From: Dehalococcoidia bacterium
Lineage (GTDB): Bacteria > Chloroflexota > Dehalococcoidia > Tepidiformales > Tepidiformaceae
Assembly (NCBI GenBank): GCA_020850615.1
Contig: JADZEI010000091.1
Span: 1 to 50,024, forward strand
DNA: 50,024 nucleotides
Direction: 5' to 3'
Shown here: piece after piece, positions 138 to 45,324 of the stretch
Layout of the letters: every line of letters starts with the position of its first letter
How positions within the stretch are numbered: position 1 is the first letter of the stretch
Position numbers and translations under genes: made by a program
The notes under the pieces: generated by a model
Told to the model about the DNA's origin: nothing
What the model saw: the letters and a program-made list of their open reading frames with translations, nothing else
The model's database searches: none

Positions 138-165
138 CGTGAACCGTGAATCGTGGACCGTGAAT
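138..165. repeat. Period-7 array, CGTGAAT type, 4 units
   Basis: Four consecutive 7-mers: CGTGAAC, CGTGAAT, CGTGGAC, CGTGAAT. It sits beside the presumed insertion-sequence edge and is the reverse complement type of the array at 2826-2846. Confidence 0.8.
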
Positions 166-210
166 TGCTCAGCCACCCCGGCCAATGCCCCACTTCCCCA
201 ATGGCACGCA

Positions 211-514
211 TTGAAAGACGTTTTCTTAACAAACCTTGCGCCGGTATAGCTTGTGACCTGCATCACAGTTATCATCCCCGGGACTTCGCCGGATCACAGG
301 TGCACCCCCATTGCACGCCGCCGGTGGAAACGCTCACTCGACCAGGAGCCTGGAAAGCTCGGTTTCGCCACCCAGGGGGAAACCACTAAGCACCACCAGC
401 ACCGGCATTCCGTAGTTGCCGGGATAGTGACCTGAGGAGGAGAGGAGCACGGTAGAGGCAGGAACCAGCTGCCACCCGGGACCGTCCCGGCGCTACCTGG
501 CTTGAATTCCGCGT
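211..514 (+). promoter_or_regulatory. Long structured 5' leader and promoter of the LysM/M23 gene
   Basis: This gene-free stretch is lower in G+C than its surroundings. A TATAGC hexamer at 244-249 could be a -10 box, giving a leader of about 260 nt. Three stems can be drawn: 323-331 with 362-372, 346-349 with 357-360 nested inside, and a perfect 6-bp stem 402-407 with 417-422. A purine-rich GAGGAGGAGAGGA run follows at about 434-446, some 70 nt before the start codon. I do not recognise a known riboswitch class. The conserved ydaO core (AGCTAACCTCG) and the GEMM tetraloop/receptor are absent. A protein-binding or simple attenuating leader is equally possible. Confidence 0.35.
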
Positions 515-1750
515 ATGGGTACTGAGGGCACACGGGCGCGCTCGCACGCGCATGCACACCGCCGCCGCAGGATGGCCGTCCACTTCGTCGTGGTTGCCGT
601 CGCCCTCTTCTCGGTCGCCTTCGCGGCCCGCTTCCCCGAAACCTCGCCCGCCTCCGGCACCGGCCTCAACACACCCACGTTCGCTCTCTCCGGCATCACC
701 GGCGGCGAATCCGGGCGGGCCGTCACCTACTTCCGGCCCGGCACGAGCCAGCAGACCCGTGAATCCGTCGCCGCCATCATCACCACGAACGAAGTCGAAA
801 GCGTGCGTGCCGCGGGCGGTGTTTCGCCTGTCTCCGCGTTCTCCTCGGGCGTCGCCGCAGCTGCTGCGACCGGCACCGAACAGGGCGCCGGCATCCAGCC
901 GCTCGCCGACATCGTGGATCCCCTGAAGCCGTTCGTGCTCTACACGGCCCAGCCCGGCGACAGCCCCGCCTACATCGCCGAGCGCTTCGGCATCGAAGCC
1001 GGCACCCTCCTCGACAACAACCCGACCATCGAGGGCGACCTCCTCCTCGTCGGCCAGGAAGTCGTGGTCCCGCGCAAGGACGGCATCCTCTATAAGGTGG
1101 GCTTCGGCGACACCGTCGATTCGATCGTCGCGCAGTACGACAACATCACCTCCGGCACGGTCGTCGACTATCGCCCGAACGCGATCACGGACCCGAAGAG
1201 CCTCGAGTCCGGGCGCTACCTGCTCCTCGTGGGCGCGACGAAGAAGCCGCCGCCACCGCCCGAGCCCGAGCCGGTCGTCCCGTCCACCCCGAGCAGCGGG
1301 AGCGGCAGCTCCGGCGGCGGCAGCACGCCCACGGGCGGCGCCCCGGCCCCCGGCGGCGCGGGCCGCTTCAACTACCCGCTCTCGCGCTGGCACGGCGTGA
1401 GCGATCCTTTCGGCACCTATCGCGGCGTCGGCCGCATCCACGAAGGCATCGACCTCGACCTCTGGGGCATGCACCACTCGACGGTCTTCGCCGCCTGCAC
1501 GGGTGTCGTCGCGAAGGTGGAGTACCTGACCTATTCCTACGGCTACCACGTGATCATCGATTGCGGCGGCGGCTGGACCACGCTCTACGCGCACTTCGAC
1601 CGGATCGACGTCGTGGCTGGCCAGCAGGTCAGCGGCGGCACCCCGCTCGGCATCTCCGGCCTCACCGGCTACACCACCGGCGAGCACCTCCACTTCGAGA
1701 TCCGCATCAACGGCGCCCCGGTGAACCCCGCGAACTACCTGGGGTTCTGA
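515..1750 (+). CDS. Secreted LysM-domain M23 peptidoglycan endopeptidase
   Basis: A 411-residue zinc endopeptidase predicted to cut peptidoglycan cross-links outside the membrane. An Arg-rich n-region and one hydrophobic segment (about 21-38) anchor or export it. One clear LysM (about 140-186) and a second weaker one (about 192-240) should bind glycan. A Pro/Gly/Ser linker (244-282) leads to the M23 domain (about 285-408). The metal and catalytic set is visible: H309 and D313 in the HxxxD motif, H360 in YAH, and H391/H393 in HLHFE. The start at 515 keeps the positive n-region; 572 is the alternative. It stands alone behind a long leader. Its partner is probably the second M23 gene at 3287. 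Family is certain, target bond is not. Confidence 0.9.
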   Translation: MGTEGTRARSHAHAHRRRRMAVHFVVVAVALFSVAFAARFPETSPASGTGLNTPTFALSGITGGESGRAVTYFRPGTSQQTRESVAAIITTNEVESVRAAGGVSPVSAFSSGVAAAAATGTEQGAGIQPLADIVDPLKPFVLYTAQPGDSPAYIAERFGIEAGTLLDNNPTIEGDLLLVGQEVVVPRKDGILYKVGFGDTVDSIVAQYDNITSGTVVDYRPNAITDPKSLESGRYLLLVGATKKPPPPPEPEPVVPSTPSSGSGSSGGGSTPTGGAPAPGGAGRFNYPLSRWHGVSDPFGTYRGVGRIHEGIDLDLWGMHHSTVFAACTGVVAKVEYLTYSYGYHVIIDCGGGWTTLYAHFDRIDVVAGQQVSGGTPLGISGLTGYTTGEHLHFEIRINGAPVNPANYLGF

Positions 1751-1751
1751 G

Positions 1752-2357
1752 TAGCCAGGCGCCGCAGGCGTAGCCGCGGAGCATTGCTCCGCGGGACTGG
1801 CTTACCCTGTCCCACCGACAGGCCACCACGTCCCGGCGCTGCGAGGGCGGGAGCTCCGCGACCGCCCGGCTCGCGGAGCGACGCGCGTGCCCCCGGTACG
1901 GGCGGAATCGCACGCTGCCGCGGCCCGGCTGATCCTGGTTCGCGACGGTGCCTTCGATGCGGCACCCGTTTGGCTGACGCGCCGCCGAGGCAGGGCTCGG
2001 CAGACTACCGCGCTACGCGCTCGGGCGCCGCAGGCGTAGCCGCGCCCCTCGTGGGCGCTGGCGCCAGCCAAATGGATGCACCGCGGCAGCCACCAACGGA
2101 GGGCGGGAGCCCTGCGACCGCCCGGCTCGCGGAGCGACGCGCGTGCCCCCGGGTGCGGGCGGAATCGCACGCTGCCGCGGGGCGGCCGGGCCAGCTGCGC
2201 GGCCCGTCTGTCCGGGTTCGCGGCCATTCCTTCGATGCCACAGCCGTTGGGCTTAGACGTTCGTGCCCACAAGGGGCACCGGCTACACCCGATGGGCTGG
2301 GCTCGGCGGACTACCGCTCCTCTGGGTGGGCCGCGCCCCTGCCCGCCACCCTCCGCC
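1752..2357. repeat. Mosaic repeat island 1 (modules A-B-C-D in two rough tandem copies)
   Basis: No credible gene lies here. Module A is at 1758-1800 and contains the palindrome CCGCGGAGCA/TTGCTCCGCGG at 1774-1794. Module B is at 1811-1925 (GAGGGCGGGAGC core). Module C is at 1931-1980 (CCTTCGATGC core). Module D is at 1981-2012 (GAGGCAGGGCTCGGCAGA core). A second, degenerate round follows: A' 2027-2045, B 2097-2185, C 2214-2262, F (GTGCCCACAAGGGGCAC) about 2262-2290, D' 2296-2320. The same modules recur in eight other islands, often inverted. ORFs through this stretch have no coding-like composition or family. Confidence 0.8.
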
Positions 2358-2765
2358 CTACCCCGGCAGCGCCTCGAGCGCGCGCGTCAGCTTCGCCTTT
2401 GCCTGCTCGGCCACGTCGTGGATCGCCGGGTTCTGGACGATGCCCATCGCCGCGCCCGGGTCCATCGCTTCCACGATCGTCTCGCCGCCATGCGCCCGGA
2501 CGACCACGTTGCAGGGCAGGAGCAGGCCCACCTCCGGCTCGGCCGTCAGCGCCTGGTTCGCGAGCACCGGGTTGCAGGCGCCGAGGATCACATACGGCTC
2601 CCGCGTCACCCCGAGCTTCTTCTCCAGCGTCGCCTTCACGTCGATCTCCGTCAGGACGCCGAATCCCTCGGCCATCAACGCCTCCCGCACGCGCGCGACC
2701 GCGTCGTCGTAGCCCAGCGCCAGCGTCCGCCGGATGCCATACGTCCGTTGTTCCACAGCAGTCAT
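2358..2765 (-). CDS. DUF302 domain protein
   Basis: A 135-residue cytosolic protein that is almost entirely a DUF302 domain: a GYDDAVARVREAL opening helix, then EIDVKATLEKKLG, and the VILGACNPVLANQAL stretch with the family's Cys-Asn-Pro. DUF302 proteins are small dimers of unknown reaction, often found near metal or sulfur stress genes. The ATG at 2765 was chosen because an AAGGGGG ribosome site precedes it; an in-frame ATG at 2831 would lie upstream of the operator. A perfect CsoR/FrmR-like palindrome overlaps the ribosome site, so metal or persulfide control is likely. No regulator gene is adjacent. It lies between islands 1 and 2. Confidence 0.85.
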   Translation of the reverse strand: MTAVEQRTYGIRRTLALGYDDAVARVREALMAEGFGVLTEIDVKATLEKKLGVTREPYVILGACNPVLANQALTAEPEVGLLLPCNVVVRAHGGETIVEAMDPGAAMGIVQNPAIHDVAEQAKAKLTRALEALPG

Positions 2766-2769
2766 GTAG

Positions 2770-2786
2770 ATACCCCCTTGGGGTAT
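2770..2786 (-). promoter_or_regulatory. CsoR/FrmR-type operator overlapping the DUF302 ribosome site
   Basis: ATACCCC-CTT-GGGGTAT is a perfect 7-bp inverted repeat with a 3-nt centre. TACCCC/GGGGTA half-sites are typical of CsoR-family (DUF156) repressors that sense Cu(I), Ni/Co, formaldehyde or persulfide. It ends 5 nt before the start codon, so bound repressor would block transcription or initiation. The cognate sensor is not in this window. Confidence 0.6.
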
Positions 2787-2825
2787 AGTACCGGCCGGAG
2801 GCGCGAGTGGGTAGGCCCGAGGTGA

Positions 2826-2846
2826 ATTCACGTTTCACGATTCACG
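2826..2846. repeat. Period-7 array, ATTCACG type, 3 units
   Basis: ATTCACG, TTTCACG, ATTCACG. It forms the left edge of island 2 and is the complement of the array at 138-165. Confidence 0.75.
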
Positions 2847-2849
2847 CCG

Positions 2850-3262
2850 GGGCGACCGGTGTCGCCGAAGGGGCCGCCGGCGACCCTCGGGGCACGCCGA
2901 CCCGCGCAGAGGGGTAGTCTGCCGAGCCCTGCCTCGGCCCACTGGGTGTAGCCCGGTGCCCCTTGTGGGCACGAGCGTCTAAGCCCAGCGGATGCCGCAT
3001 CGAAGGCACCGTCGCGAACCAGGACAGTCGGGGCCGCGCAGCTGCCCCGGCCGTCGCTCGTCAGTGGCGCGACCGGCCGAGGGAGCGCTCCGCCGCACCC
3101 CGGCACCGCCGTCCCGCGCCAGCGCGCGACGCCACGCCCGCGACGCGCGTCGCGCCACGAGCCGGCCGGTCGCTCCGCTCCCGCCCTCGCAGACCCGGAC
3201 GCTGGTGGCCTGGCGGTGTCACATCCGTGGGCTTCCGCTCAGGGCCCACCAGGGGCCCGGGC
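2850..3262. repeat. Mosaic repeat island 2 (mostly inverted relative to island 1)
   Basis: Module D inverted at about 2915-2944, F at 2945-2975, C inverted at 2976-3030, E' at 3061-3090, B inverted at about 3140-3215, and an F-like GGGCCCACCAGGGGCCCGGG at 3242-3261. The 30 bp at 3061-3090 are identical to 22422-22451 in island 4. No gene is supported here. Confidence 0.75.
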
Positions 3263-3264
3263 CA

Positions 3265-3285
3265 CGACAGCCGACAGCCGACAGC
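3265..3285. repeat. Period-7 array, CGACAGC x3
   Basis: Three perfect CGACAGC units ending one base before the stop codon of the M23 lipoprotein. It closes island 2 on the right. Confidence 0.8.
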
Positions 3286-3286
3286 C

Positions 3287-4234
3287 CTAAAACCCGTTCG
3301 TCCCGTCCGTGAACCGCATCCCGTCCACCAGCACTCCGCCCGCCGACATCTCCCAGTGCAGGTGCGCGCCCGTGGAGAGGCCCGTGTTGCCGACGTAGCC
3401 GATGAGGTCGCCCTGCTGGACGAACTGGCCCTCGGCGACCGAGAAGGCGCTCATGTGGGCGTACCCGGAGAACAGTCCGCCGCCGTGGTCGACGACCACC
3501 ATGTTGCCGCGCAGCCGCAGCTCCCGGGCGAGCACCACCCGGCCCGTGTTCGTCGCGTATACGGGCGTCCCTTCGGCGGCGCCGATGTCCGTGCCGCCGT
3601 GGTGCCCGGAGGGCTCGCTGCCGTTGTACGACCGCTGTTCGCCAAACCGCGTGGTCAGCGCCCCCGCGGTCGGCACGGCCCACGGGCCCGTCCACAGCTT
3701 CTGCGGTGTGACCTTCGCGTACACGGAGTTCAGCAGCTCCAGCTCGTCGGCGCCGACCCGAGGGTCCAGCAGCCCCGTCTGCGATTCGGGCACATCGATC
3801 GCGTCGACCGTCCACTGCGCCGAGATCACGCTAATCGTCTCGTCGACGTGCCCCTGGGAGCCGTTCGAAAGCACGAAGTCGACCCGCAGCGGGTGGTCGC
3901 CCGGCGCGTCCTCCGCGTCGACCGGCACGAACGTGTAGAGGCTCTGGCTGCCCTGCGCGAGCGGGAACGTCCGCCCGAGGAACTGCACGTTGCCGCCGGT
4001 CACTTCGCCCACGACCGACACGAGCACCGCCCCCGCCTGGTAGACCGTCGTCGCCGAGAGGATCAGCTCCGGAGGAGGGATCGGCGTGGAGGTGGGCGTC
4101 GGGCTGGCGTTGGCCACGCTCGTGTGCGAGGGGCTGTTGAACACCAGCTTCGCGTCGCCGTCGCCGCCGCCCCCACAGGCACTGGCGAGGGCCACGATAA
4201 AGGCCCCGAGGATAAGCCCGGCAGCTCCGCGCAT
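3287..4234 (-). CDS. M23 family metallopeptidase lipoprotein
   Basis: A 315-residue lipoprotein. The signal sequence ends in the lipobox LASAC (Cys20), followed by a Gly/Asp and Pro/Thr spacer. An Ig-like middle domain of about 120 residues precedes the M23 domain (about 190-310). Zinc ligands are visible as HHGGTD, the catalytic YAH, and GAHLHWE. It should trim or remodel peptidoglycan from the membrane face. The start at 4234 is chosen because the signal peptide begins there; an upstream GTG at 4465 would add 77 unlikely residues. No strong ribosome site is visible. It is the second M23 enzyme within 4 kb; without LysM, it is probably not redundant with the first. Confidence 0.88.
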   Translation of the reverse strand: MRGAAGLILGAFIVALASACGGGGDGDAKLVFNSPSHTSVANASPTPTSTPIPPPELILSATTVYQAGAVLVSVVGEVTGGNVQFLGRTFPLAQGSQSLYTFVPVDAEDAPGDHPLRVDFVLSNGSQGHVDETISVISAQWTVDAIDVPESQTGLLDPRVGADELELLNSVYAKVTPQKLWTGPWAVPTAGALTTRFGEQRSYNGSEPSGHHGGTDIGAAEGTPVYATNTGRVVLARELRLRGNMVVVDHGGGLFSGYAHMSAFSVAEGQFVQQGDLIGYVGNTGLSTGAHLHWEMSAGGVLVDGMRFTDGTNGF

Positions 4235-4509
4235 CCCGTAAGAGTGCGTCAGCGTGCGGGAACGCGGAAGCCGCGAAAAAGTCGCCTTTCGCCGGCGAAA
4301 CCCGAAGGTGACAGCTGCGGGATAACCGCATACGCGCACCGGGACGTGACTCAAGTGTCGTATGAAGCGGCCGAATATCACCATGTGGACAAGAGGCGGT
4401 GAGCCGGGGCGACACGCCGCACTCTCCGGGTCAGGCCCTTCCCGGCTCATCCGCCCATCCCACACGGGTGCACAATAGGCGCGCTCGCCATTGCGAGCGG
4501 GGGAGCCCG

Positions 4510-5322
4510 GTGGACCTCAAGGCCACGAAGTACGCGGTGGCGGACCGTATCGCCACGCTCACGCTGAACCGCCCGCACCGCATGAACGCCTGGACCGGCC
4601 GGATGCACACCGAGTACCGCTGGTGCCTCGCCGAGGCCGACCGCGACCCCGCGGTGCGCGTCATCGTCGTCACCGGCGAAGGGCGGGCGTTCTGTGCCGG
4701 CGCCGACGCGGCCGCGCTCGAAGGGCACATCGCGAAGGGCGCCTACGACCCTGGCACGCCGGACGAGCTGTCCCTGCCGGGCTACGGCTTCCGCCCCGAG
4801 TTCGACCACGACTTCGCCTACCAGTTCGGGCTCTCGAAGCCGGTCATCGCGGCGGTGAACGGCGCGGCGGCGGGCGTCGGCCTCGCCATCGTCTGCTACG
4901 CCGACCTGCGGTTCGCGGCGAAAGGGGCCAAGCTCACGACCGCGCACGCGAAGCTCGGCCTCCCCGCCGAGTTCGGCCTCTCGTGGATTCTCCCGCGGAT
5001 CGTCGGGCTCACCCACGCGAACGACCTGCTCCTGTCCAGCCGCGTCGTCCTCGCCGAAGAGGCCGCGGGCATGGGCCTCTTCAACGGCGTGTTCGAACCA
5101 GACGAGCTCCTGCCGCGCACCTACGACTACGCCCGGATGCTCGCGGACCGGGTCTCGCCCGCCTCGCTCCGCGCCACCCGCCAGCAGGTCGCGCTCGACC
5201 TCCACCGCGACGTCGGCGCGGCGGTCGAAGACAGCAACGCGCGCCTGCGGGAGATGATGACCGGCCCCGAATACCGCGAGGGCGTCCGCGCCTTCCTCGA
5301 AAAGCGCCCGCCGAACTTCTGA
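4510..5322 (+). CDS. Crotonase-fold enoyl-CoA hydratase/isomerase family protein
   Basis: A 270-residue crotonase. The CoA/oxyanion parts are clear: GRAFCAGAD near residue 60 and the NGAAAGVG turn near 118. The two glutamates of classical enoyl-CoA hydratase are not at their usual places (Ala and His there). Instead GLPAEFGLSW supplies a Glu, as in a large subgroup of uncharacterised crotonases. Hydration of a straight-chain enoyl-CoA should therefore not be assumed. GTG at 4510 is chosen for its GGGGGAG ribosome site and the family's usual start; upstream in-frame sequence is not conserved-looking. It probably acts in acyl-CoA breakdown with the CoA-transferases and dehydrogenases farther along. 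Confidence 0.85.
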   Translation: MDLKATKYAVADRIATLTLNRPHRMNAWTGRMHTEYRWCLAEADRDPAVRVIVVTGEGRAFCAGADAAALEGHIAKGAYDPGTPDELSLPGYGFRPEFDHDFAYQFGLSKPVIAAVNGAAAGVGLAIVCYADLRFAAKGAKLTTAHAKLGLPAEFGLSWILPRIVGLTHANDLLLSSRVVLAEEAAGMGLFNGVFEPDELLPRTYDYARMLADRVSPASLRATRQQVALDLHRDVGAAVEDSNARLREMMTGPEYREGVRAFLEKRPPNF

Positions 5323-5329
5323 CCCCATC

Positions 5330-5357
5330 GACAATCGGTCATCGGCAATCGACAATC
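5330..5357. repeat. Period-7 array, GACAATC/GGCAATC type, 4 units (left of Uma2)
   Basis: GACAATC, GGTCATC, GGCAATC, GACAATC. It starts 7 nt after the crotonase stop and ends 5 nt before the Uma2 start codon, so it must carry or adjoin the Uma2 promoter. Confidence 0.85.
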
Positions 5358-5362
5358 GCGGT

Positions 5363-5914
5363 ATGCCGGTGAGCGAAGCAACGTACCGCCAGCTTTCTCT
5401 CGAAGACGACGACACGGTCTGGGAACTCGTGTGCGGCCGGCTCCGGGAGAAACCACCGATGACGCAGGCCCACGGGGACATCAGCTTCTACCTGGGGGTG
5501 TTGCTGCAGAACGCACTGCCCCGAAACCGGTATCGCGTGCTCGCCAACCACGCCCGGCTGCGGACGTCGCAGGGCACCTTCTACGTCCCGGACATCGCCG
5601 TCATCCCTGCGAGTGCGTTGCTGCCGATGGACCAGCGCGTGCAGGAGCTGGACGAGTACGCCGTGCCCCTGCCGCTTGTGGTCGAAGTCTGGTCGCCGTC
5701 CACGGGGCGATACGACGTGCGGGAGAAGCTCCCGGCCTACCGCGAACGTGGCGACGGCGAGATCTGGCTCGTCCACCCCATCGAGCGCACGCTCCGCGCC
5801 TGGCGCCGGCAGGGCGACGGCTCGTACACCGAAACCACCTATGGCGCCGATGCGACCGTCGAACCAGCCACCCTCCCCGGCGTCCGCATCGAGCTCGCCC
5901 AGCTGTTCGAGTGA
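5363..5914 (+). CDS. Uma2 family (DUF820) PD-(D/E)XK nuclease-like protein
   Basis: A 183-residue Uma2 protein. The nuclease core is visible: VPDIAVI (Asp), then LVVEVWSPST (Glu) and RYDVREKLPAY (Lys), then EIWLVHP. These match the D...ExK arrangement of the family. Uma2 proteins are abundant in Cyanobacteria and Chloroflexota; their role is unknown, with proposals of nuclease, transposon-linked or host-defence work. The gene is bracketed by two arrays of the same 7-bp repeat, 5 nt before the ATG and 9 nt after the stop. No ribosome site is seen, so a leaderless start is likely. It is one of three Uma2 genes here. Confidence 0.88.
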   Translation: MPVSEATYRQLSLEDDDTVWELVCGRLREKPPMTQAHGDISFYLGVLLQNALPRNRYRVLANHARLRTSQGTFYVPDIAVIPASALLPMDQRVQELDEYAVPLPLVVEVWSPSTGRYDVREKLPAYRERGDGEIWLVHPIERTLRAWRRQGDGSYTETTYGADATVEPATLPGVRIELAQLFE

Positions 5915-5923
5915 CCCGCCCCA

Positions 5924-5958
5924 CCCAATCGGCAATCGACAATCGGCAATCGACAATC
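5924..5958. repeat. Period-7 array, GGCAATC/GACAATC type, 5 units (right of Uma2)
   Basis: CCCAATC, GGCAATC, GACAATC, GGCAATC, GACAATC in the same orientation as the left array. It begins 9 nt after the Uma2 stop. Confidence 0.85.
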
Positions 5959-16482: not shown

Positions 16483-16962
16483 ATGACGAGCGAGGAACGG
16501 ACCGCGGCCGAAGATGCCACGATCCAGGCCCTGTTCGGCGCCAGCGGCCTGCTCGACGCCCTCCGCCTGCGCGTCTGGGACACCGAGGGCCTGACGGTGA
16601 CGCAGCTCCGCCTGCTCGCCTACGTCTTCCAGTCCGAAGGCATCAGCAACGCCGAGCTCGCCGACCGCCTGATGGTCACGCGGCCGTCCGTCTCGGCGTT
16701 GCTGGACCGCCTCGAGCGCGGCGGCTTCATCCGCCGCGAAATCTCGCAGACCGACCGCCGCGGCATCTGCATCTGGCTCCAGGATCGCGGCCGCGACGCC
16801 GTCACCCACACGCGCGAAGAGAACCGCGAGTACGTGCGCGGCCTGCTCGAAGACCTCGATACGGGCGACCTGGTGGAGATCACCGCGGCGCTGGAACAGC
16901 TCGCTGCCGCCGGACGCGCCCGCCGCGCCCGGGACCTCGCCGCCGACCCGAACGCGTTCTAG
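16483..16962 (+). CDS. MarR family transcriptional regulator
   Basis: 159 residues with the MarR winged helix: TVTQLRLLAYVF, SNAELADRLMVTRPSVSALLDRLERGGFI (recognition helix), and the wing REISQTDRRGICIWL. Terminal helices should form the dimer. Members bind aromatic or lipophilic ligands and repress nearby genes. It follows the LLM oxidoreductase by 37 nt on the same strand with a GGGAGG site, so it most likely controls that gene and itself. Confidence 0.9.
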   Translation: MTSEERTAAEDATIQALFGASGLLDALRLRVWDTEGLTVTQLRLLAYVFQSEGISNAELADRLMVTRPSVSALLDRLERGGFIRREISQTDRRGICIWLQDRGRDAVTHTREENREYVRGLLEDLDTGDLVEITAALEQLAAAGRARRARDLAADPNAF

Positions 16963-16976: not shown

Positions 16977-17335
16977 ATCAGTAGCGCGCGCGTGAGCAAG
17001 CGCTCGCGCGCCCCCCGGCACCTCCGCCACCGCGCAGCCCGCGCCATCGCCGTGCCGGGTGCTGTGCCCTGGGCCGGGCGGTCGCGCCCGGCATCGCCAT
17101 CAGTAGCGCGCGTCAGCGAGCGCCCGCGCGACCCCTGTGCCACCGCCACCGCGCAGCGCGCACCATCGCCGCGCCGGGTGCCGCGCCACTGCGGTGGCTA
17201 TGCCGAGGACACGCACTATCAGTAGCGCGCGCGTGAGCGAGCGCTCGCGCGACCCCTGTACCCCCGCCAACGCGCAGCCCGCGTCCCGTCCCCGCGCCGT
17301 GACCCCCGCCCGCGCGAGCGGCTATCCTGATCGGA
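16977..17335. repeat. Mosaic repeat island 3: module E in three ~120-bp tandem copies
   Basis: Copies start at about 16977, 17098 and 17218 with ATCAGTAGCGCGCG, followed by a CGTGAGC-AAGCGCTCGCG imperfect hairpin, then a weaker CCGCCACCGCGCAGCCCGCG block. The first 35 bp are best kept. A further copy of the head lies at 40106-40142. No gene is supported; the TATCCT at about 17323 may be the -10 box for the next gene. Confidence 0.75.
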
Positions 17336-17802: not shown

Positions 17803-18342
17803 CTACCCCAGGACGGCCCAGAGTTCGGCCAGCGGCACCGCCAGGCCCGGCAGCGCCGCGGAGGTGAGCTCGCCGTCCGCCGGCAGCGTTACGGGCGCCG
17901 CGTCACGTTCGTGCACTTCGGCCGCGCGCGCCTCCGGGTCGACCAGCCACACGGTCTCGACGCCGTGCCCGAGCAGGTACGCCGCCCGCGTCCGCAGCGA
18001 TGCCCGCGACTGTTCCGGCGAGCGGATCTCGACCGCGAGCGTCGGCGGGTTCATCCGCGAACCTTCGCCGACCGCGCTGGCGTCACGCCAGAACGACACG
18101 TCCGGCAGCAGGAAGCGGTGGTCCCGGTGGTCGGGGAATTCGCTCCGGCTTTCGACCCCGCCGAATCCGCCATGTACGCGGCGATAGTCGCGGAGGAAGC
18201 CGCCAATCTCGAAGGCCAGTCCGGAATGATCTTTGCTGGGCATCGGTTTCGCCACGACCTCCCCATGCACGTACTCGAGATACGGCTTCTCTTCGGGGAG
18301 GGCGAGGTACTCCGCGACCGTCATCCGCTGCCGCACGATCAT
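17803..18342 (-). CDS. Uma2 family (DUF820) PD-(D/E)XK nuclease-like protein
   Basis: 179 residues. MTVAEYLALPEEKPYLEYVHGEVV is the standard Uma2 opening. The catalytic region shows LLPDVSFW (Asp), LAVEIRSPEQS (Glu) and then RTRAAYLLGHGVETVWLVDPE. The usual lysine is here Arg/Ser-Leu-Arg-Thr-Arg, so activity is less sure than for the gene at 5363. It is convergent with the FTR-like gene, 4 bp apart, and divergent from the GGDEF-EAL gene. A TATACT box 6 nt before the ATG makes it leaderless. Confidence 0.85.
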   Translation of the reverse strand: MIVRQRMTVAEYLALPEEKPYLEYVHGEVVAKPMPSKDHSGLAFEIGGFLRDYRRVHGGFGGVESRSEFPDHRDHRFLLPDVSFWRDASAVGEGSRMNPPTLAVEIRSPEQSRASLRTRAAYLLGHGVETVWLVDPEARAAEVHERDAAPVTLPADGELTSAALPGLAVPLAELWAVLG

Positions 18343-22224: not shown

Positions 22225-22636
22225 GGATGCCTCGATGGTGTGAAATACCGCGGCCCGGCCACGCCTGCCGCCAGCTGATTGCGAAATCCTAGCAGGAATG
22301 GCCCTACGTGCGGGCGCGCACGCGCGCCGCCCCGCATTCGCGCGCGAAACCGACAACGCAATCGGCGCGCGGGCTGTTGGCTATCGGCTGTTGGCCCCCC
22401 AAATCGCGACGACGCCGCTTATCAGTGGCGCGACCGGCCGAGGGAGCGCTCGCGTGCCACCAGCGACACCGGTGCCGGGCTCCGCCACCACCCGCGCCCC
22501 GCGATTCGCGCGCTTGGGGCAAACACGCCCGCGCCAGCCTGGCACCAACAGCCAACAGCCAATAGCCAACAGCACGCGCACAGCCAACAGCCAACAGCCG
22601 CCCTCGCCCCGTATAGTTGCCCGCGCGGAGGTGTGC
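22225..22636. repeat. Divergent spacer holding mosaic repeat island 4 between inverted 7-bp arrays
   Basis: Left array GGCTGTT, GGCTATC, GGCTGTT (about 22372-22392), island with module E' at 22422-22451 (30 bp identical to 3061-3090), then right arrays of CAACAGC (22546-22573 and 22585-22598). The arrays are reverse complements of each other. TATAGT at about 22611-22616 is the -10 candidate for the CaiB gene. Confidence 0.75.
22546..22598. repeat. Period-7 array, CAACAGC type, 6 units
   Basis: CAACAGC, CAACAGC, CAATAGC, CAACAGC at 22546-22573, then two more CAACAGC at 22585-22598 after an 11-nt gap. Confidence 0.85.
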
Positions 22637-25834: not shown

Positions 25835-26599
25835 ATGGATCGTAGGGTCGGCGTCGTCACCGGCGCGGGCGGCAATATCGGCCGCGCAACCGCGGAGCTC
25901 CTCGGCCGCGAAGGCTTCGGCGTGCTCTGCGTCGATTCCAACCAGGCGACAGTGGACGCCACCGTCGCCGCCATCCGCGCCGCCGGCGGCCTCGCCGAAG
26001 GCTTCGCCGCCGACGTCACGGACGAAGCCCAGGTCTACGCCTATGCGGCGAAGTGCAACGAGCTCTGGGGCTGCGCCAACTTTTTCTTCAACAACGCCGG
26101 CGTCGAAGGCGCCAAGGCCCCGCTCGCCAGCTACCCCACCGACGCCTGGGACAAGGTCATCGCGGTGAACCTGCGCGGCGTCTTCCTCGGGCTGAAGGCG
26201 ATGTTGCCCCTGCTGCGCCACGCCGACGCCGCCCGGGTGGTCAACACCGCCTCGGTCGCGGGCATCATCGGCACGCCCATGCTCGCCGCCTATGGCGCGA
26301 GCAAGCACGCCGTCGTCGGGCTCACCATGACCGCCGCGATCGAGTTCGCGCCCATGGACATCGCCGTCAACGCCATCTGCCCCGGCCCGGTCGAAAGCGA
26401 CATGATGCGCCGCATCGAAGAGGGCGTGGCCCCCGGCGCCGCCGCCGCCGCCCACGACCAGTACGAGCAGAACATCCCGGCCACGCGCTACGCCAAGCTC
26501 GAAGAAGTCGCCGAGCTCGCCGTCTACCTGCTCACCAAGAGCCCCATGTACATGACCGGCCAGGCGGTCGCCATCGACGGTGCCATGACCGCGAAGTGA
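25835..26599 (+). CDS. Short-chain dehydrogenase/reductase
   Basis: 254 residues of a classical SDR. TGAGGNIGRAT is the dinucleotide loop, VDSN after strand 2 suggests NAD(H), NNAGVEG is the structural motif, and YGASKHA carries the catalytic Tyr and Lys. The serine is in NTASVAG. Substrate unknown; neighbours suggest a hydroxyacyl or alcohol intermediate of acyl breakdown. ATG 25835 is chosen for the GGAGG site; an upstream ATG at 25793 lies before that site. Confidence 0.9.
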   Translation: MDRRVGVVTGAGGNIGRATAELLGREGFGVLCVDSNQATVDATVAAIRAAGGLAEGFAADVTDEAQVYAYAAKCNELWGCANFFFNNAGVEGAKAPLASYPTDAWDKVIAVNLRGVFLGLKAMLPLLRHADAARVVNTASVAGIIGTPMLAAYGASKHAVVGLTMTAAIEFAPMDIAVNAICPGPVESDMMRRIEEGVAPGAAAAAHDQYEQNIPATRYAKLEEVAELAVYLLTKSPMYMTGQAVAIDGAMTAK

Positions 26600-26605
26600 G
26601 TCCCG

Positions 26606-26661
26606 AGTCCGTAGTCCTTAGTCCCTGGTCGCGCGCGGTTCGGGACTAAGGACTACGGACT
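26606..26661. terminator. Bidirectional hairpin built from 7-bp repeats
   Basis: 26606-26625 and 26642-26661 are perfect 20-bp reverse complements with a 16-nt loop. Each arm is itself a period-7 array (AGTCCGT, AGTCCTT, AGTCCC and GGACTAA, GGACTAC). It lies between the convergent SDR and sortase stops and could end both transcripts, though no U-tract follows. Confidence 0.6.
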
Positions 26662-26666
26662 AAGGA

Positions 26667-27344
26667 CTACCCCACGTACCGTTCCGCCACGAGGATCACC
26701 CGGCTCGTGTATTCGCCGCCGACCGCCGCGGGGATGAACGTGCCGCCGCAGCTGATCAGCGTGACCCGCTCGGTGGTGCTATCGAGCGGCGGGTACACCA
26801 CCGGGTTCATGTCCAGGTCGTCCAGGTGCACCAGCTCCACGGACCGCACGGTGTAGGTGTACACCTCGCCGTTCGCCATCGTCACGTAGAGCGCGTCTTC
26901 CGGCTTCGCGCTGAGCAGGTACGCGAACGGACCGTTGCCGTACCCGGCGTAGTTCACGTGCGCCGCGAAGATGGTGTTCACCGCCGGGCTCCCCGGGTGC
27001 CCGAACCTGCGGTAGTGGGCGATGTACTGCGGCGCGCTCGGGTCCTGGAACACCTCGCGGCCGCTCACCCAATTGGTGTCGCGCACCTGCACGGGCGCGC
27101 CGCCCAGGATCCGCGCCGAACCGAGGTAGATCGACGCCACCGGCCCGTCGTACGGCGCCGGGCGGGGGGTTGGCGTCGGGACCGCGGTGGGTGACGGCGT
27201 AGGCGGGAATTCGCCGCGCGTGACCACCGGCGCGTAGGCGCGGTACTTCAGCTTCGGCGGGTCCGCGCCCAGCACGAGCGTCGCCCCGAGGAGCCCACAC
27301 AACCCGACAGCCGCCACCAGGAGCGGGAGAACGCGTAACCGCAT
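26667..27344 (-). CDS. Sortase (class E/F-like) transpeptidase
   Basis: 225 residues. One N-terminal membrane segment (about 5-27) and a Pro/Thr linker place the enzyme outside the cell. The catalytic trio is visible: His129 in AAHVNY, Cys199 in TLISCGG, Arg215 in EYTSRV. Sortases cut LPxTG-like signals and attach proteins to cell-wall or other acceptors. The short single-anchor form fits class E/F. A likely substrate with an LPPATG tail is encoded at 30907. It follows an alpha/beta hydrolase by 8 nt in the same direction. ATG 27344 has AGGAAGG upstream. Confidence 0.85.
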   Translation of the reverse strand: MRLRVLPLLVAAVGLCGLLGATLVLGADPPKLKYRAYAPVVTRGEFPPTPSPTAVPTPTPRPAPYDGPVASIYLGSARILGGAPVQVRDTNWVSGREVFQDPSAPQYIAHYRRFGHPGSPAVNTIFAAHVNYAGYGNGPFAYLLSAKPEDALYVTMANGEVYTYTVRSVELVHLDDLDMNPVVYPPLDSTTERVTLISCGGTFIPAAVGGEYTSRVILVAERYVG

Positions 27345-28277: not shown

Positions 28278-28916
28278 ATGAGCGCGCCTTCGGACATGGT
28301 CGCGGCGGCCTGGCTCGAAACCGGCGACCGGATGGACCGCGAGGAGTTCCACCGGCGCTACGAGCTGGCGGCCCCGGACTTCCGCGCCGAGCTCGTGGAG
28401 GGAGTGGTCTACGTGGCATCGCCCGTCCGCTACGGTCTCCACGACGAGCAGACGATGCTCGTCCGCGAGTGGCTCGCCGCCTACCGCCGTAGCCACCCCG
28501 AGACGCGCACCGGCCACGACGCCAGCGTCTTCCTCGACGACCACAACGAGTACCACCCCGACGCGTTTCTCTTTCGCACCGGTCCGGGCGCATCGCTCCG
28601 CGAAGGCCCGGACCACTACCTGCGCGGCGCGCCGGAGCTCGTCGTCGAGGTCTCGGCCAGCACGCTCTCCCGTGACCTGAACGACAAAAAGGACGCTTAC
28701 GAGCGCAACGGCGTACGCGAGTACATCGTCTGGCGCGTCCTGCAGAATGCGGTCGACTGGTTCCGCCTGGACGACGGCGCCTTCGCGCGCGTCCAGCCCG
28801 GAAGCGACGGCATCATCGAGAGCGCGGTCTTCCCCGGCCTCCGCCTCGATGTCCCGGCCCTGCTCGCGATGGACAGCGAGCGCGTCCTCGCCACCCTCGT
28901 CGACTCCGCGCCTTAG
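28278..28916 (+). CDS. Uma2 family (DUF820) PD-(D/E)XK nuclease-like protein
   Basis: 212 residues, the longest Uma2 here. MDREEFHRRYELAAPDFRAELVEGVV is the family opening. The core reads YHPDAFLF (Asp), LVVEVSASTLSRDLNDKKDAY (Glu and Lys) and REYIVWRVL. All expected acidic and basic residues are present. It is leaderless, divergent from the hydrolase at 27353, and its stop overlaps the convergent HAD gene by 4 bp. No 7-bp arrays flank this copy. Confidence 0.87.
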   Translation: MSAPSDMVAAAWLETGDRMDREEFHRRYELAAPDFRAELVEGVVYVASPVRYGLHDEQTMLVREWLAAYRRSHPETRTGHDASVFLDDHNEYHPDAFLFRTGPGASLREGPDHYLRGAPELVVEVSASTLSRDLNDKKDAYERNGVREYIVWRVLQNAVDWFRLDDGAFARVQPGSDGIIESAVFPGLRLDVPALLAMDSERVLATLVDSAP

Positions 28917-35717: not shown

Positions 35718-35777
35718 CGCGAGCGTGGGGCCGGTCTGGCGTAGAATCCCGGCACACCCCACTTGCCGGAGCTCCCC

Positions 35778-36584
35778 GTGGACTACAACGCCATCCTCTA
35801 CGCCGTCGAAGACGGTGTCGCGACCATCACCCTGAACAAGCCCGAGCGGCTCAACGCCTTTGACGACGAGATGCTGCGCGAATGGTGCGACGCCATCCTC
35901 CGCGCCGACCAGGACCGCGCCGTCCGGGTCATCATCATCACCGGCTCCGGGCGCGGCTTCTGCAGCGGCATGAACGTCGCCGCCGAGGCCGCCGGCGATG
36001 GCGTGCTCCGCACCCAGGCCACCGTCGCCGACCGCCGCCACAGCCTGCGCGACCGCGTGCACCCGATCCCGCGCGCGCTCATCCAGCTCGAAAAGCCGTA
36101 CATCGCCGCGATCAACGGCGCCGCCGCCGGCGCGGGCATGGACATGGCCTCGATGGCCGACATCCGCTTCGCCGCCTCCACCGCGCGCGTGGGCATGACC
36201 TACGTCCGCATGGGCCTGATCCCCGGCGACGGCGGCTGCTGGACGCTCCCGCGCATCGTCGGCACCCAGAAGGCGCTCGACCTGATCTGGTCCGGCCGCC
36301 TGATCACCGCCCAGGAAGCGCTCGACATGGGCTACCTCATGGCCGTGTACGAACCGGACGAGCTCATGCCGAAGGTCACGGAATACGCGAAGAGCCTCGC
36401 GAAGGGCCCCGCGACCGCGCTCCAGCTCGCCAAGAAGCTCGTCTACCGCTCCCAGAACATCCCCTTCGACGAGCACCTCGATATGGCCCAGATGAGCATG
36501 TTCATCGCCCAGACCACCGACGACGCCCGCGAAGGCCCGAGGGCGTTCGTGGAAAAGCGCGAACCCCAGTTCAAGGGCTGGTAG
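35778..36584 (+). CDS. Crotonase-fold enoyl-CoA hydratase/isomerase family protein
   Basis: 268 residues. GRGFCSGMNVA and INGAAAGAGMDMA form the CoA/oxyanion site. The first catalytic Glu position is Asp and the second is Tyr; IPGDGGCWTLPR adds an Asp seen in several non-hydratase crotonases. The exact reaction is open (isomerase, hydratase on unusual substrates, or other). GTG 35778 is chosen with a GGAG site and by analogy to the crotonase at 4510; TTG 35763 is the longer option. TAGAAT at about 35745 is a -10 candidate. Confidence 0.87.
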   Translation: MDYNAILYAVEDGVATITLNKPERLNAFDDEMLREWCDAILRADQDRAVRVIIITGSGRGFCSGMNVAAEAAGDGVLRTQATVADRRHSLRDRVHPIPRALIQLEKPYIAAINGAAAGAGMDMASMADIRFAASTARVGMTYVRMGLIPGDGGCWTLPRIVGTQKALDLIWSGRLITAQEALDMGYLMAVYEPDELMPKVTEYAKSLAKGPATALQLAKKLVYRSQNIPFDEHLDMAQMSMFIAQTTDDAREGPRAFVEKREPQFKGW

Positions 36585-36587
36585 GCG

Positions 36588-36620
36588 AGTTAGTGATCAG
36601 TCATCGGTCGTCAGTTATCA
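36588..36620. repeat. Period-7 array, degenerate AGTCATC type
   Basis: AGTGATC, AGTCATC, GGTCGTC, AGTTATC after the crotonase stop. The sequence drifts between units but the 7-bp spacing is kept. Confidence 0.65.
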
Positions 36621-36629
36621 GGTCGTTGT

Positions 36630-37070
36630 CCGGTGCGGGCGCCGCAGGCGTAGTCGCGGAGCATCGGCTCCGCGGCCCCCAGGATCATGCCGCGCGGTAG
36701 CCCGCGAATCCGCCACCCGTGGCGCAACGCACCGCGCGCGACCATCCACACCACGCCGTCTCCCCTCTCCCCCGCGGGGGAGAGGGGTCCGGGGGTGAGG
36801 GCGGCGTCGCCCCATGTCCACGCCGGGCACCGCAGGCGTATGCCGCGGAACACTGCTCCGCGGGACGGTCCGTGCCATGTCACACCGACGGGCGATGATG
36901 TGTTGCGCTGGCGTGGGGCGGGGTACCCGTGGACGCGCAAGGCTACCGCGGTGCATCCGTTGGGCTTAGACGCGCCGCCGAGGCTGGGCTCGGCAGGCTA
37001 CCGCTGCGCGGCGGGGCGCCGCGGGATTCTCCGTACGCCTGTCGCCCGGGCCCCCCGCCATCGCCCCCGC
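36630..37070. repeat. Mosaic repeat island 5
   Basis: Two degenerate A modules (about 36640-36680 and 36827-36868), a 12-bp perfect stem CCCCTCTCCCCC/GGGGGAGAGGGG at 36762-36787 followed by GTCCGGGGGTGAGGG, then joined C and D modules at about 36952-37005. No gene is supported between the crotonase and CMD genes. Confidence 0.75.
36762..36787. repeat. CCCCTCTCC palindrome repeat
   Basis: 12-bp perfect stem with a 2-nt loop. This CCTCTCCC...GGGAGAGGG-GGTGAGGG unit is widespread among bacteria as an intergenic palindrome; copies also at 10784 and 45252. Confidence 0.75.
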
Positions 37071-37073
37071 ACC

Positions 37074-40009: not shown

Positions 40010-40342
40010 CGGCTGGCTGTCGGACATCAGCTCTCGGCACCACCGCCGCGACGACGGCGGAAGGCGCGCAGCGGTAGTCCGCCGAGCCTGCCTCGACGGC
40101 ACGTAATCAGTAGCGCGCGCGTGAGCAAGCGCTCGCGCGCTCCCAGCTACACCGCCCCGCGGCCGCGCGAACGGCCACGACCGGGGTGTAGCCGGTGCCC
40201 CTTGTGGGCACGAGCGTCAGCCAAACGGATGTGTCATCGAAGCCGCCGTCGCACCCCGGTACCATCGCCGCCGCGCCAGCGCGCGATACGGCATCGGCGC
40301 CGCGCCTGTGAGGAAGCGGGCGAGCGTGGTACGAGCGACCAG

Positions 40343-40396
40343 GTCCCGCGCCAGCCCACGACGCCCACCGTCCCGCGCCAGCCCACGACGCCCACC
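40343..40396. repeat. 27-bp direct repeat, two copies
   Basis: Two adjacent 27-mers beginning GTCCCGCGCCAGCCCACG and ending GCCCACC are identical. Confidence 0.9.
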
Positions 40397-40564
40397 GCCC
40401 GCCCGCCCGCGACGCCCCTCGCCCCGCGAGCCGGCCGGTCGCTCCGCTCCCGCCCCTCGCAGCCCCGGGGCGTGGAGCGGGCTGCCGCGGGGCGCCGGTA
40501 CTGGCAGCTCCGCCGAGGCAGGGCTCGGCGCACTACCCGCTCCGCGCGCCACCCACGCGGAAAC

Positions 40565-40600
40565 GCCAATCGGCAATCGGCAATCGACAAATCGGCAATT
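40565..40600. repeat. Period-7 array, GGCAATC type, 5 units
   Basis: GCCAATC, GGCAATC, GGCAATC, an 8-bp GACAAATC, GGCAATT. Same family as the arrays that bracket the Uma2 gene at 5363, but no gene sits against it. Confidence 0.8.
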
Positions 40601-40720
40601 GCCTCGTCCCACCGTGCCCGTAAGGGTTTACCAACCCCCCGTTAAGGACTCCTCCGCCCCACCCTCGGTCCACAGCTTATGGCTCGAACATAATTGCAAG
40701 GCGCACCCTTCTGGTTAACA

Positions 40721-40764
40721 CAGAGTTTGCAAACCTCTGCCGCTGCGCAGATGTTCCAGCGCAG
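40721..40764 (+). promoter_or_regulatory. Palindrome and hairpin in the leader of the SH3b gene
   Basis: GTTTGCAAAC (40725-40734) is a perfect 10-bp palindrome inside a nearly symmetric CAGAG...CTCTG frame; a second stem pairs 40743-40748 with 40759-40764. A CATAAT -10 candidate lies at 40689-40694. Confidence 0.4.
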
Positions 40765-40812
40765 GCCCCCGGCTACGGTCGAGCCTGCTTGCGACCCATT
40801 TGGGAGGTGTTT

Positions 40813-42716: not shown

Positions 42717-43031
42717 CCGGCCGCGCACGCGGGCGGCGAACCGTCAGGTCCGGCCGTTGTTCGCCGGGTGGGCGGTTGCACCCGGGGGCACGGGCATCGC
42801 GCCACGAGCCGGTCGGTCGCGAGGCTCCCGCCCTCGCAGTCCCGGACGATGGTGGCCTATCAGTGGGCATGGTACGGGCAATCCCGCGGAGCAATGCTCC
42901 GCGGCTACGCCTGCGGCGCGCGCGGCCCGCGGCAGCGGTAGTCCGCCGAGTCCTGCCTCGACGGCGCGTCAGCCAAACGGAGGTGGCATCGAAGGCACGG
43001 TTGCGATCCGGGACAGCCGGGCGGCGAACCG
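42717..43031. repeat. Mosaic repeat island 7 (whole C-D-A-B unit inverted)
   Basis: Read on the reverse strand it runs C (about 43015-42967), D (42966-42930), A with the perfect palindrome 42884-42904, then B (about 42862-42795). This is the same cyclic order as island 1. No gene is supported. Confidence 0.8.
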
Positions 43032-43472: not shown

Positions 43473-43477
43473 GCCCC

Positions 43478-43483
43478 AGTGTA
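43478..43483 (-). promoter_or_regulatory. TACACT -10 box, 5 nt before ATG (leaderless)
   Basis: Reverse strand TACACT, GGGGC, ATG at 43472. Confidence 0.45.
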
Positions 43484-43557
43484 AGGCCCCGGACCTCACA
43501 AGTTGTACTTCCGCCGCAACCCCGTCCCGGGTGATGTGCGCGTGCCCGGCCGCGCCC

Positions 43558-44745: not shown

Positions 44746-44751
44746 CGCCGA

Positions 44752-44757
44752 ACTGTA
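44752..44757 (-). promoter_or_regulatory. TACAGT -10 box, 6 nt before ATG (leaderless)
   Basis: Reverse strand TACAGT, TCGGCG, ATG at 44745. It lies within the 14-bp spacer to the divergent gene at 44760. Confidence 0.5.
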
Positions 44758-44759
44758 GC

Positions 44760-45287
44760 ATGGCGCGCCGGGCTGCGGCGGCGGGCCCCGCCGGACGAAG
44801 CTTCCAGTACGTGTTCGACGCCTACCCGTTCCTCCACGCCGCCGATGCAGCCAGCCACGCGCCCGTGTGGGCGCTCGCTGCCTGCCTCGCAGGCGGCGCC
44901 GCGGCGGGCCTGCTGGTCATCGCCGCGACCGCGCGCCTAACCGCCCCCGCCGACGGCGACACCGCGCCGTTCGCGCTGCGCAGCTCGGGCAGCCGCGGCG
45001 CCACCTGGTTCGCAGAAGTGGAACCGCGCGGCCCCGGGTTCGAACCATCCGCCGGTGCCTGGTACCTCCGCACCGCCGCCGGCACCGCCCTGCCGCTCAC
45101 GATCGAACCCCACCCCGCCGGCCATCTCGCCCTCATCGCCCCCCTCCGCCCCGGCGACCTCCCCACCGCCATCGAATACCACGCCCCCCACCCTGGAGCC
45201 GTCTCCCGCATCCCCCTCCCCTCCCGCACCGCCTCGGGCGAGCACCAGGCTCCCCTCTCCCGCGCACAGGAGAGGGGCAGGGGGTGA
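44760..45287 (+). CDS. Membrane-anchored protein of unknown function, C-terminus within a palindromic repeat
   Basis: 175 residues. A hydrophobic segment (about 36-58) is followed by a predicted extracytoplasmic beta-rich part (ATWFAEVEPRGPGFEP, AGHLALIAPLRPGD). No family is recognised. The last 14 residues (from about HQAPLSRAQERGRG) are encoded by the CCCCTCTCC palindrome repeat, whose GGTGAGGG supplies the stop. The repeat has probably replaced or extended the native C-terminus. No ribosome site or clear promoter is visible. Confidence 0.55.
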   Translation: MARRAAAAGPAGRSFQYVFDAYPFLHAADAASHAPVWALAACLAGGAAAGLLVIAATARLTAPADGDTAPFALRSSGSRGATWFAEVEPRGPGFEPSAGAWYLRTAAGTALPLTIEPHPAGHLALIAPLRPGDLPTAIEYHAPHPGAVSRIPLPSRTASGEHQAPLSRAQERGRG

Positions 45288-45290
45288 GGG
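45252..45290. repeat. CCCCTCTCC palindrome repeat inside a coding 3' end
   Basis: CCCCTCTCC (45252-45260) pairs with GGAGAGGGG (45269-45277), followed by CAGGGGGTGAGGG. It overlaps the end of the gene at 44760. Confidence 0.75.
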
Positions 45291-45296
45291 TTCGCC

Positions 45297-45324
45297 GGCC
45301 AACGGCCAACGGCCAACGGACAAC
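45297..45324. repeat. Period-7 array, GGCCAAC type, 4 units
   Basis: GGCCAAC three times, then GGACAAC, between the convergent genes at 44760 and 45330. Confidence 0.85.

Follow-up and report, generated by a model that had tools for sequence, protein, structure and literature searches.

The stretch of DNA analysed here in full (hereafter the window) is contig C91 of a Dehalococcoidia bacterium (GCA_020850615.1, contig JADZEI010000091.1; 50,024 bp, 71% GC; assembly of 4.17 Mb in 95 contigs, 95% complete), and the spacers between its genes carry short arrays of consecutive 7-bp units. A preliminary description of the window had listed twelve such sites and regarded them as solitary arrays in which the period is kept and the sequence is free. 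We compared these arrays with the surroundings of genes of the S23 family (23S_rRNA_IVP, recognised by PF05635), and found that in this genome and in others such genes often stand between two inverted arrays of the same kind; the arrays probably represent the terminal arms of small S23 elements or of derivatives which lack the S23 gene.

The sample of this genome comprised 850,024 bp, namely the window and forty 20-kb stretches drawn from seven long contigs, beginning at the contig start, and arrays were scored by the matches at lag 7 (strict 13/14, looser 12/14, longer 17/21). In intergenic DNA 27 strict arrays were found, against none in each of five shuffles; in the same scan period 14 gave 16 arrays and every other period between 4 and 30 at most six. 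The looser score gave 49 intergenic arrays (shuffle mean 2.6, maximum 6; period 6 gave 16) and the longer one 42, against 0.5 in shuffles. The window alone held nine stretches with 12/14 at lag 7, compared with a mean of 1.9 and a maximum of 5 in ten shuffles; its periods 6, 9, 12, 18, 21 and 24 were likewise above the shuffles, which probably reflects coding DNA, since these are multiples of 3. When improved gene calls were used to sort the arrays into intergenic and genic ones, the sample yielded 72 arrays, seven of them in predicted genes and 65 intergenic; 32 of the latter lay no more than 60 bp from the 3' end of a gene, seven near a 5' end and 26 farther off. The spacers which carry arrays were longer and had more dispersed-repeat content (52% versus 22% covered), and the stretches taken from relatives, some of them picked around matches, showed further period-7 units (AGTGCTG, CTCGAGC, AGAGAAA, GAGGCAT).

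The 7-bp arrays are thus real, and the scan against shuffled DNA which the preliminary description had called for showed, in this sample, an intergenic excess. Eleven of its twelve sites are clearly or degenerately 7-periodic close to where it had placed them (those at 138, 5330, 22372 and 36588 are periodic but degenerate), and the site at 40015 is barely so (11/24). Its view that arrays lie against gene ends is borne out, with 26 of the 65 intergenic arrays farther off, and its statement that they are never inside genes is correct for the window with the improved gene calls, but not for the larger sample with its seven genic arrays.

The simplest explanation of such counts would be ordinary simple-sequence repeats (SSR), that is 7-bp slipped-strand growth in unconstrained spacers, with S23 genes merely nearby. 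Heptamers are over-represented in many bacteria according to the available text of PMC4692102, the array lengths are variable, and 34 of the 48 array-bearing spacers show a single called array; nevertheless, of the periods tested in the spacers, only 7 and its double are prominent, beside a smaller family with period 8, and the features described below are not those expected from slippage alone.

The first of these features is a fixed orientation, which together with inverted pairing comes in addition to what the preliminary description had noticed. Units were classified as T-type (GTTGGCT, GTTGTCC, ATTCACG, GATTTTC, GTTATCA) or as A-type, their reverse complements, first by A and T counts and then by a rule on short words. 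T-type arrays stand at the left of spacers and A-type arrays at the right (29 T-type and 8 A-type at the left, 2 and 26 at the right; Fisher p=6.7e-9), and with the short-word rule, once one S23 element had been taken out with both its arms, the pattern persisted (29/7 at the left, 2/25 at the right, p=4e-9). Two or more arrays were present in 14 of the 48 array-bearing spacers. Among neighbouring arrays at least 12 bp apart the order T..A occurred ten times, and the two partners matched inversely at 12/14 or better in six of these ten pairs, versus 13% with swapped partners. Several compact pairs (e.g. 26598-26669) fold into long hairpins; heterotypic pairs have no arm-to-arm pairing.

Such hairpins, together with the 32 arrays close to gene 3' ends, could suggest regulatory or terminator structures which act with some other protein independently of S23, and which would accompany S23 genes as well, as S23 transcripts need such stems. 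This is improbable in our judgement: pairs were found between divergent genes too, full pairing is impossible for the heterotypic ones, the polarity follows the side of the spacer, and like arms bound an S23 gene within a 23S rRNA gene.

The association with S23 genes became apparent at an inverted pair (L044:2360-2821) which encloses a PF05635 open reading frame (ORF) between pheS and pheT. Five PF05635 genes are present in this genome; four of them lie between inverted heptad arms (GTTGTCC, AGTGCTG, CTGTTGG and ATTCACG) and the fifth (L099) between inverted arms of an 8-bp unit (GGCGTAAA/GGCGTAGA). In a set of 63 Chloroflexota S23 loci, a subset of the matches in this genome, 41 relatives and 201 Chloroflexota genomes, 54 had complete flanks, and with the criterion of an array within 300 bp of the S23 gene arrays stood on one side or both at 44 of these, on both at 30 and as an inverted pair at 27. 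Under the same criterion the genes of the Uma2 family (PF05685; 28 complete loci, 30 fetched of 41 genes) had an array on any side in 6/28 and on both sides in 0/28, and among 730 genes of our own-genome sample the numbers were 90 and 3, one of the three being inverted but with opposite polarity. The two arms within a Chloroflexota S23 locus matched at 12/14 or better in 27/30 cases versus 4% of 870 swapped combinations. An inverse match of the flanks at 14/16, which does not depend on the array caller, was found in 83% of the 54 Chloroflexota loci versus 5% when swapped, and in 62% versus 10% for 26 loci of Pseudomonadota. Period 7 accounts for 30-35% of the bases at distances of 50-100 bp from the S23 domain, but for 0-4% at more than 200 bp, the periods 5, 6, 8, 9, 10 and 11 reaching at most 2.3% per bin, and the median arm is 32.5 bp, i.e. 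4.6 units.

Inverted ends, dispersed pairs without S23 and the longer, repeat-rich array spacers might also be attributed to a DNA transposon with heptad terminal repeats which is foreign to S23, where S23 would be a passenger and the solo pairs would resemble miniature inverted-repeat transposable elements. In the 30 two-sided Chloroflexota loci, however, the arms keep within 148 bp of the S23 domain on its upstream side and within 112 bp on its downstream side, so that there is no room for a transposase, and the units vary freely; we consider this explanation quite unlikely.

The same arrangement was met outside the Chloroflexota. S23 occurs in 51 of 299 Pseudomonadota genomes, and of 30 loci four were excluded as cut by contig ends; the remaining 26 had an array on any side in 21, on both sides in 10 and an inverted pair in nine cases. 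A plasmid search gave 27 S23 records, mostly from heterocystous cyanobacteria, and 15 plasmid loci (13 cyanobacterial, one of Azospirillum and one of Gemmatirosa) had an array in 12, arrays on both sides in 11 and an inverted pair in 11. Two plasmid copies lie between cas6 and cas4, both with heptad arrays on each side, and one between ribonucleotide reductase genes; a copy between cas10 and cmr3 (L195) has irregular inverted arms which the caller did not score. Six loci on viral contigs were called on both sides in three cases and on one side in one, the arms of the other two being seen by eye; the phage records searched for S23 gave no match, and the search of the 20 genomes behind L012-L035, which found no S23, is uninformative. 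The Azospirillum copy L199 sits with its heptad arms inside the large-subunit (23S) rRNA gene. The S23 protein XCC0516 of Xanthomonas campestris (PDB 2gsc) has five chains in its structure, the number seen in both solved relatives, and the title of the XCC0516 structure paper reportedly mentions five four-helix bundles. Slippage alone would not predict the polarity, the inverse match across a gene or the S23 peak at 50-100 bp in two phyla; ordinary simple-sequence repeats are therefore an unlikely explanation and strongly disfavoured.

Comparison of relatives with and without the gene showed how these loci behave. pheS was found in 23 family genomes, and in 9 of these S23 adjoins it, judged by coordinates (G003, whose contig ends 342 bp past pheS, being counted among those without S23 there); pheT was confirmed as the other neighbour in our genome, and the relatives that were compared had homologous flanks. 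The spacer between the co-oriented tRNA-Leu(CAA) and tRNA-Gln genes is 485 nt long in G031 and 513 nt in G003, where it holds an S23 gene between irregular inverted arms unscored by the caller, and 12, 19, 40, 41, 84 and 145 nt in six other genomes of five genera (16 loci scanned). At loci L248 and L143 an S23 gene fills the tRNA-Leu/tRNA-Gln spacer. At orthologous sites the unit had changed in place: AGTGCTG stands against AGTCCCG at one site (L134 and L155, the latter with one called arm only), and CCAACAG, CTAACAG, CCAATGG and AGCTGGC were found at the pheS site, the period and the inverse match being kept despite the change. The sharing of units follows the identity of the S23 proteins: among 2080 pairs of 65 loci its mean was 0.585 above 70% identity, 0.110 at 55-70%, 0.019 at 45-55% and at most 0.003 below 45%. 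Homologous flanks on the same side were present in 74 of the 169 S23 pairs with at least 55% identity. For two S23 genes of 74% identity (L213 and L230) the upstream flank of each corresponds to the downstream flank of the other, with protein identities of 26% and 45%, which would suit a flip of the gene between its arms, although this hint from the sequences is weak and not proven.

The arrays without an adjacent S23 gene resemble the arms of the S23 genes resident in the same genome. Of 63 solo arrays, 34 (54%) match an arm of the four heptad S23 loci of this genome at 12/14, whereas sets of four foreign loci drawn at random gave 23.5% (p=0.015); for matches at 13/14 the values are 43% and 5%, with 0 of 5000 draws reaching the former. 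The period-8 family behaves likewise: of seven intergenic period-8 arrays in our sample, five (L056:9106, L057:13686, L058:15654, L060:14602 and L064:19221) match the sole period-8 S23 arm, that of L099, at 14/14, and the other two are C-rich tracts. In the comparison of solo arrays per genome, which omitted the G003 and G007 stretches and L076, all picked around known matches, and two 4.6-kb contigs of G018, no array was found in 440 kb of six genomes without S23, and arrays were present in five of 15 S23-bearing genomes (sampled 15-850 kb). These numbers fit with S23 being compatible with many solo arrays in a genome and insufficient alone. A dependence of the number of solo arrays on S23 dose was considered (Spearman 0.64, p=0.0017, 21 genomes) but is not claimed, as presence or absence of S23 gave p=0.13.

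The window shows single arms as well as pairs (strand in brackets). A degenerate solo arm of the right-hand, A-type kind (CGTGAAT, 16/21 at lag 7) lies at 138-165 (-) and shares its unit with the arms around the G000:C11 copy of S23 (L100). A heterotypic pair is formed by a T-type left arm at 2826-2846 (+; ATTCACG, 12/14), which matches the L100 arm, and a right arm at 3265-3286 (-; CGACAGC, 15/15), which abuts the stop of the gene 3287-4234 (-) and matches the L098 arm at 12/14 or better. A degenerate arm of the CAATCGA family (5327-5358, -; 19/25) stands between the genes 4510-5322 and 5363-5914, and an arm CAATCGG/CAATCGA (5926-5958, -; 23/26), which matches no resident S23 arm, lies downstream of the latter, a Uma2 gene. 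In a divergent spacer a degenerate left arm GGCTGTT (22372-22397, +; 13/19) is inverse to the right arm CCAACAG at 22545-22599 (-), whose unit also flanks the S23 gene of the pheS-pheT spacer (L098/L044). The left arm GAGTCC/TAGTCC (26598-26624, +) and the right arm GGACTAA (26643-26669, -) match inversely at 14/14 and no resident S23 arm; together they form a compact pair of 72 bp without S23, which folds as one long hairpin. Just past the stop of the gene 35763-36584 there is a degenerate left arm of the GTTATCA/GTCATCA family (36590-36620, +; 17/24). In the spacer 40010-40806 a very degenerate possible left arm of the GGCTGTC family (40012-40042, +; 11/24), unconvincing alone, is accompanied by an arm CAATCGG (40567-40599, -; 19/26) without a resident match. 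Finally, an arm CGGCCAA (45296-45325, -; 22/23) between the convergent genes 44811-45287 and 45330-46106 matches the arms of L096 and L098 at 12/14 or better.

Uma2 was considered as the partner gene because 5363-5914 lies between arrays, and was rejected, as none of the 28 complete Uma2 loci has called arrays on both sides; the family has 41 matches in this genome (G000), with window copies at 5363-5914, 17803-18342 and 28278-28916. The window ORF 22298-25024, whose start is probably at 22637, contains two matches to CoA-transferase family III, and the closest named relatives of its protein come from metagenome-assembled genomes of Dehalococcoidia (Chloroflexota), at 58-59% identity. Dispersed GC-rich mosaic repeats (GGCGCCGCAGGCGTAGCCGCGGAGCATTGCTCCGCGG, ATCAGTGGCGCGACC...GAGCGCTC) occupy the intergenic segments 1751-2357, 2757-3286, 36585-37073, 40010-40806, 42717-43031, 48168-48451 and 49619-50024, with up to 52 matches over one position in the 850-kb sample, and some copies appear to provide the stop codon of the neighbouring gene. 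A single composite element with a fixed interior was rejected: these repeats sit between many arm pairs, but at variable distance from the arms and with different units, and so look like separate repeats of the same spacers. A tandem repeat of about 119 bp in 2.5 copies (16977-17282) lies in the spacer after the gene 16483-16962. No Rfam match was found in the window.

Several observations weigh against assigning the arrays to S23 elements. The profile search of our genome found no PF05635 gene on the window's contig, and 29 of the 63 solo arrays, including CAATCGG and GGACTAA of the window, have no resident match at 12/14. Ten of the 15 S23-bearing genomes had no array in samples of 15-80 kb, and the contrast between genomes with and without S23 gave only the p=0.13 stated above. 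No array was called at 10 of the 54 complete Chloroflexota loci, most of which have degenerate or period-8 inverted arms on a by-eye, post hoc reading (at L172 the inverted repeat is non-periodic, and at L152 no clear arm is visible), nor at 5 of the 26 complete Pseudomonadota loci. Three two-sided Chloroflexota loci, two of them clearly direct, and the Pseudomonadota locus L220 are without inverted excess, and at L189 the arrays nearest to the S23 gene are direct, though an inverted pair is present. Uma2 flanks show a slight excess of inverse matches at 14/16 (14% versus 5% swapped, 28 loci). Most array-bearing spacers, 34 of 48 as given above, show a single called array; among the ten T..A pairs the units of the two arms clearly differ in two and are borderline in two more, and the neighbour orders TT, AA and AT occurred once each. 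Same-side flanks are shared by 19 of the 22 listed S23 pairs with identity of at least 0.70, and only five of 32 unit-sharing pairs lack homologous flanks; recent movement is accordingly not seen, and much of the unit sharing is inheritance in place.

Terminal arms of S23 elements remain the account which we prefer, and most likely they are the working ends of these elements, acting as paired stems, read by a protein ring in 7-nt steps and maintained by slippage and conversion. A complete element consists of a 5' arm of about 4-6 heptamers, usually G-rich, a short ORF for the S23 four-helix bundle and a 3' arm with the inverse heptamer, and occupies spacers beside or between genes (pheS-pheT, tRNA-Leu/tRNA-Gln, cas and ribonucleotide-reductase genes), once also the 23S rRNA gene. 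This anatomy, the association with S23, the inverse match of the arms, the presence and absence of the gene at one site among relatives, the units that follow the protein and their change in place are shown by the data, and the mechanism outlined next is proposed. The transcribed arms may pair as an RNA stem, or as extruded DNA, and RNase III might cleave the stem as published for rRNA intervening sequences, which would make the insertion tolerable. The S23 ring of five chains could bind the arms with one subunit per heptamer; in this case the 7-nt register would be fixed and the sequence free. Slippage of units and conversion between the arms would distribute mutations to both, so that period and pairing could persist during the drift of the unit. 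Since S23 is absent from the window, we take the arrays there for S23-less derivatives: pairs which may have lost the S23 ORF or were never autonomous, or of which one arm was kept. A bolder version, in which the arms are a sequence-free code measured by the protein, the S23 ring reading 7-nt steps on a stem or strand and both arms being actively rewritten together, so that a lineage could exchange its unit and still keep period, pairing and recognition, and in which the heptanucleotide repeats of cyanobacteria, Xanthomonas and Beggiatoa are all remains of S23 elements, is rather doubtful.

Copying by reverse transcription of excised S23 RNA was also considered. Avd, a protein of diversity-generating retroelements, has a fold related to that of S23, and L162 encodes an S23 protein which matches bAvd below the threshold (E=1.3e-6, 29.3 bits against a cut-off of 40); rRNA intervening sequences are excised as RNA, as stated in the available part of PMC4990558. 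RVT_1 (PF00078) matches were, however, found in five of the 41 genomes searched, ours not among these five, and in our own assembly, where no PF00078 reverse transcriptase was found, a resident copier was rejected and no Avd-type diversity-generating retroelement was recognised. This route is very unlikely.

With these results the interpretation given in the preliminary description is partly supported. The persistence of the period while the sequence changes was borne out in sister genera even at orthologous sites, which calls for a copying or homogenising process. The spacing of almost always exactly 7 is not absolute, as a period-8 family occurs. The units are not unrelated at each locus, as several sites share a unit or match the S23 arms of this genome, and the view of solitary arrays with free sequence is not sustained, for they are polar, sometimes inversely paired, and of the same kind as the S23 arms, which match each other within a locus. 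That the arrays are not one spreading element is true of a single sequence; the matched arms, the related proteins and units and the likeness of solo arrays to resident arms indicate that a family of elements persists or spreads.

Among the closest known systems is the intervening sequence (IVS) of 23S rRNA with its S23/IVP ORF between stem-forming inverted terminal repeats. According to the available text of Warrier et al. (PMC4990558), the Coxiella IVS has a terminal stem of 28 bp and, upstream of its S23 ORF, GACAGAT heptamers in tandem, whose number varies from strain to strain and the first of which holds an RNase III site, and the Azospirillum copy L199 lies in the large-subunit rRNA as well. 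An S23 ORF enclosed by terminal inverted repeats was found at 27/54, 9/26 and 11/15 of the loci from Chloroflexota, Pseudomonadota and plasmids, respectively; in contrast, the window arms enclose no S23 ORF and thereby fall outside the IVS definition, nearly all copies lie in ordinary spacers, and whereas an IVS has its place in helix 25 or 45 of 23S rRNA, an Rfam search put none of 20 Pseudomonadota loci (20 of the 30) in rRNA. Among the open-access papers listed, no title or abstract beginning linked heptamer repeats in general with S23 genes, subscription papers such as the original surveys of short tandemly repeated repetitive (STRR) sequences and SSR lying outside this scope, and PMC4990558 is the one open-access paper found which reports heptamers at an S23 ORF; our claim of novelty is limited accordingly. 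The 18 S23/IVP genes reported within cas loci in the available text of PMC3936711 may be insertions of S23 elements, since both cas6-S23-cas4 copies of our set are flanked by heptad arrays on each side.

The Xanthomonas GGGAATC and Nostoc GGGGA(C/T)T repeats are likewise intergenic heptamers, the former mostly of four units and with two nearby sites convergent in 70 cases in Xcc and 75 in Xac, and X. campestris has XCC0516; they differ in being treated as quadruplex-forming repeats of one unit type, Nostoc has few inverted pairs, and a link to S23 is unmentioned in the available parts of PMC4692102. The TAACTGA repeats of Beggiatoaceae, Cyanobacteria and Bacteroidetes are intergenic too and are a rotation of the CTGATAA/GTTATCA unit found here (L061:15238, L182), but in the Guaymas strain they stand mostly just before start codons, as far as the available text of PMC4679880 tells, whereas ours mostly follow stop codons. 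Regulation, quadruplexes or rearrangement have been proposed for heptanucleotide repeats in the same sources (PMC4679880, PMC4692102).

The assignment to S23 elements could explain a bacterial repeat class of unsettled origin, and it joins two puzzles, the scattered heptanucleotide repeats of bacteria and the S23 protein of rRNA intervening sequences, for which we know of no established function. If it is true, the repeats gain an owner and the S23 protein a likely ligand, both testable in culturable cyanobacteria, and the change of units at orthologous sites offers a natural system for the concerted evolution of inverted arms. The STRR repeats of heterocystous cyanobacteria are dispersed heptanucleotide arrays, and short tandem heptamers scattered through intergenic DNA, as in heptanucleotide STRR/SSR repeats, are what was found here. 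The S23 genes on cyanobacterial plasmids carry heptad arms, and the likeness to the cyanobacterial repeats may extend beyond the period alone; S23 elements and their S23-less derivatives, to which the arrays are best assigned, may be a class which unites several of the known heptanucleotide repeats.

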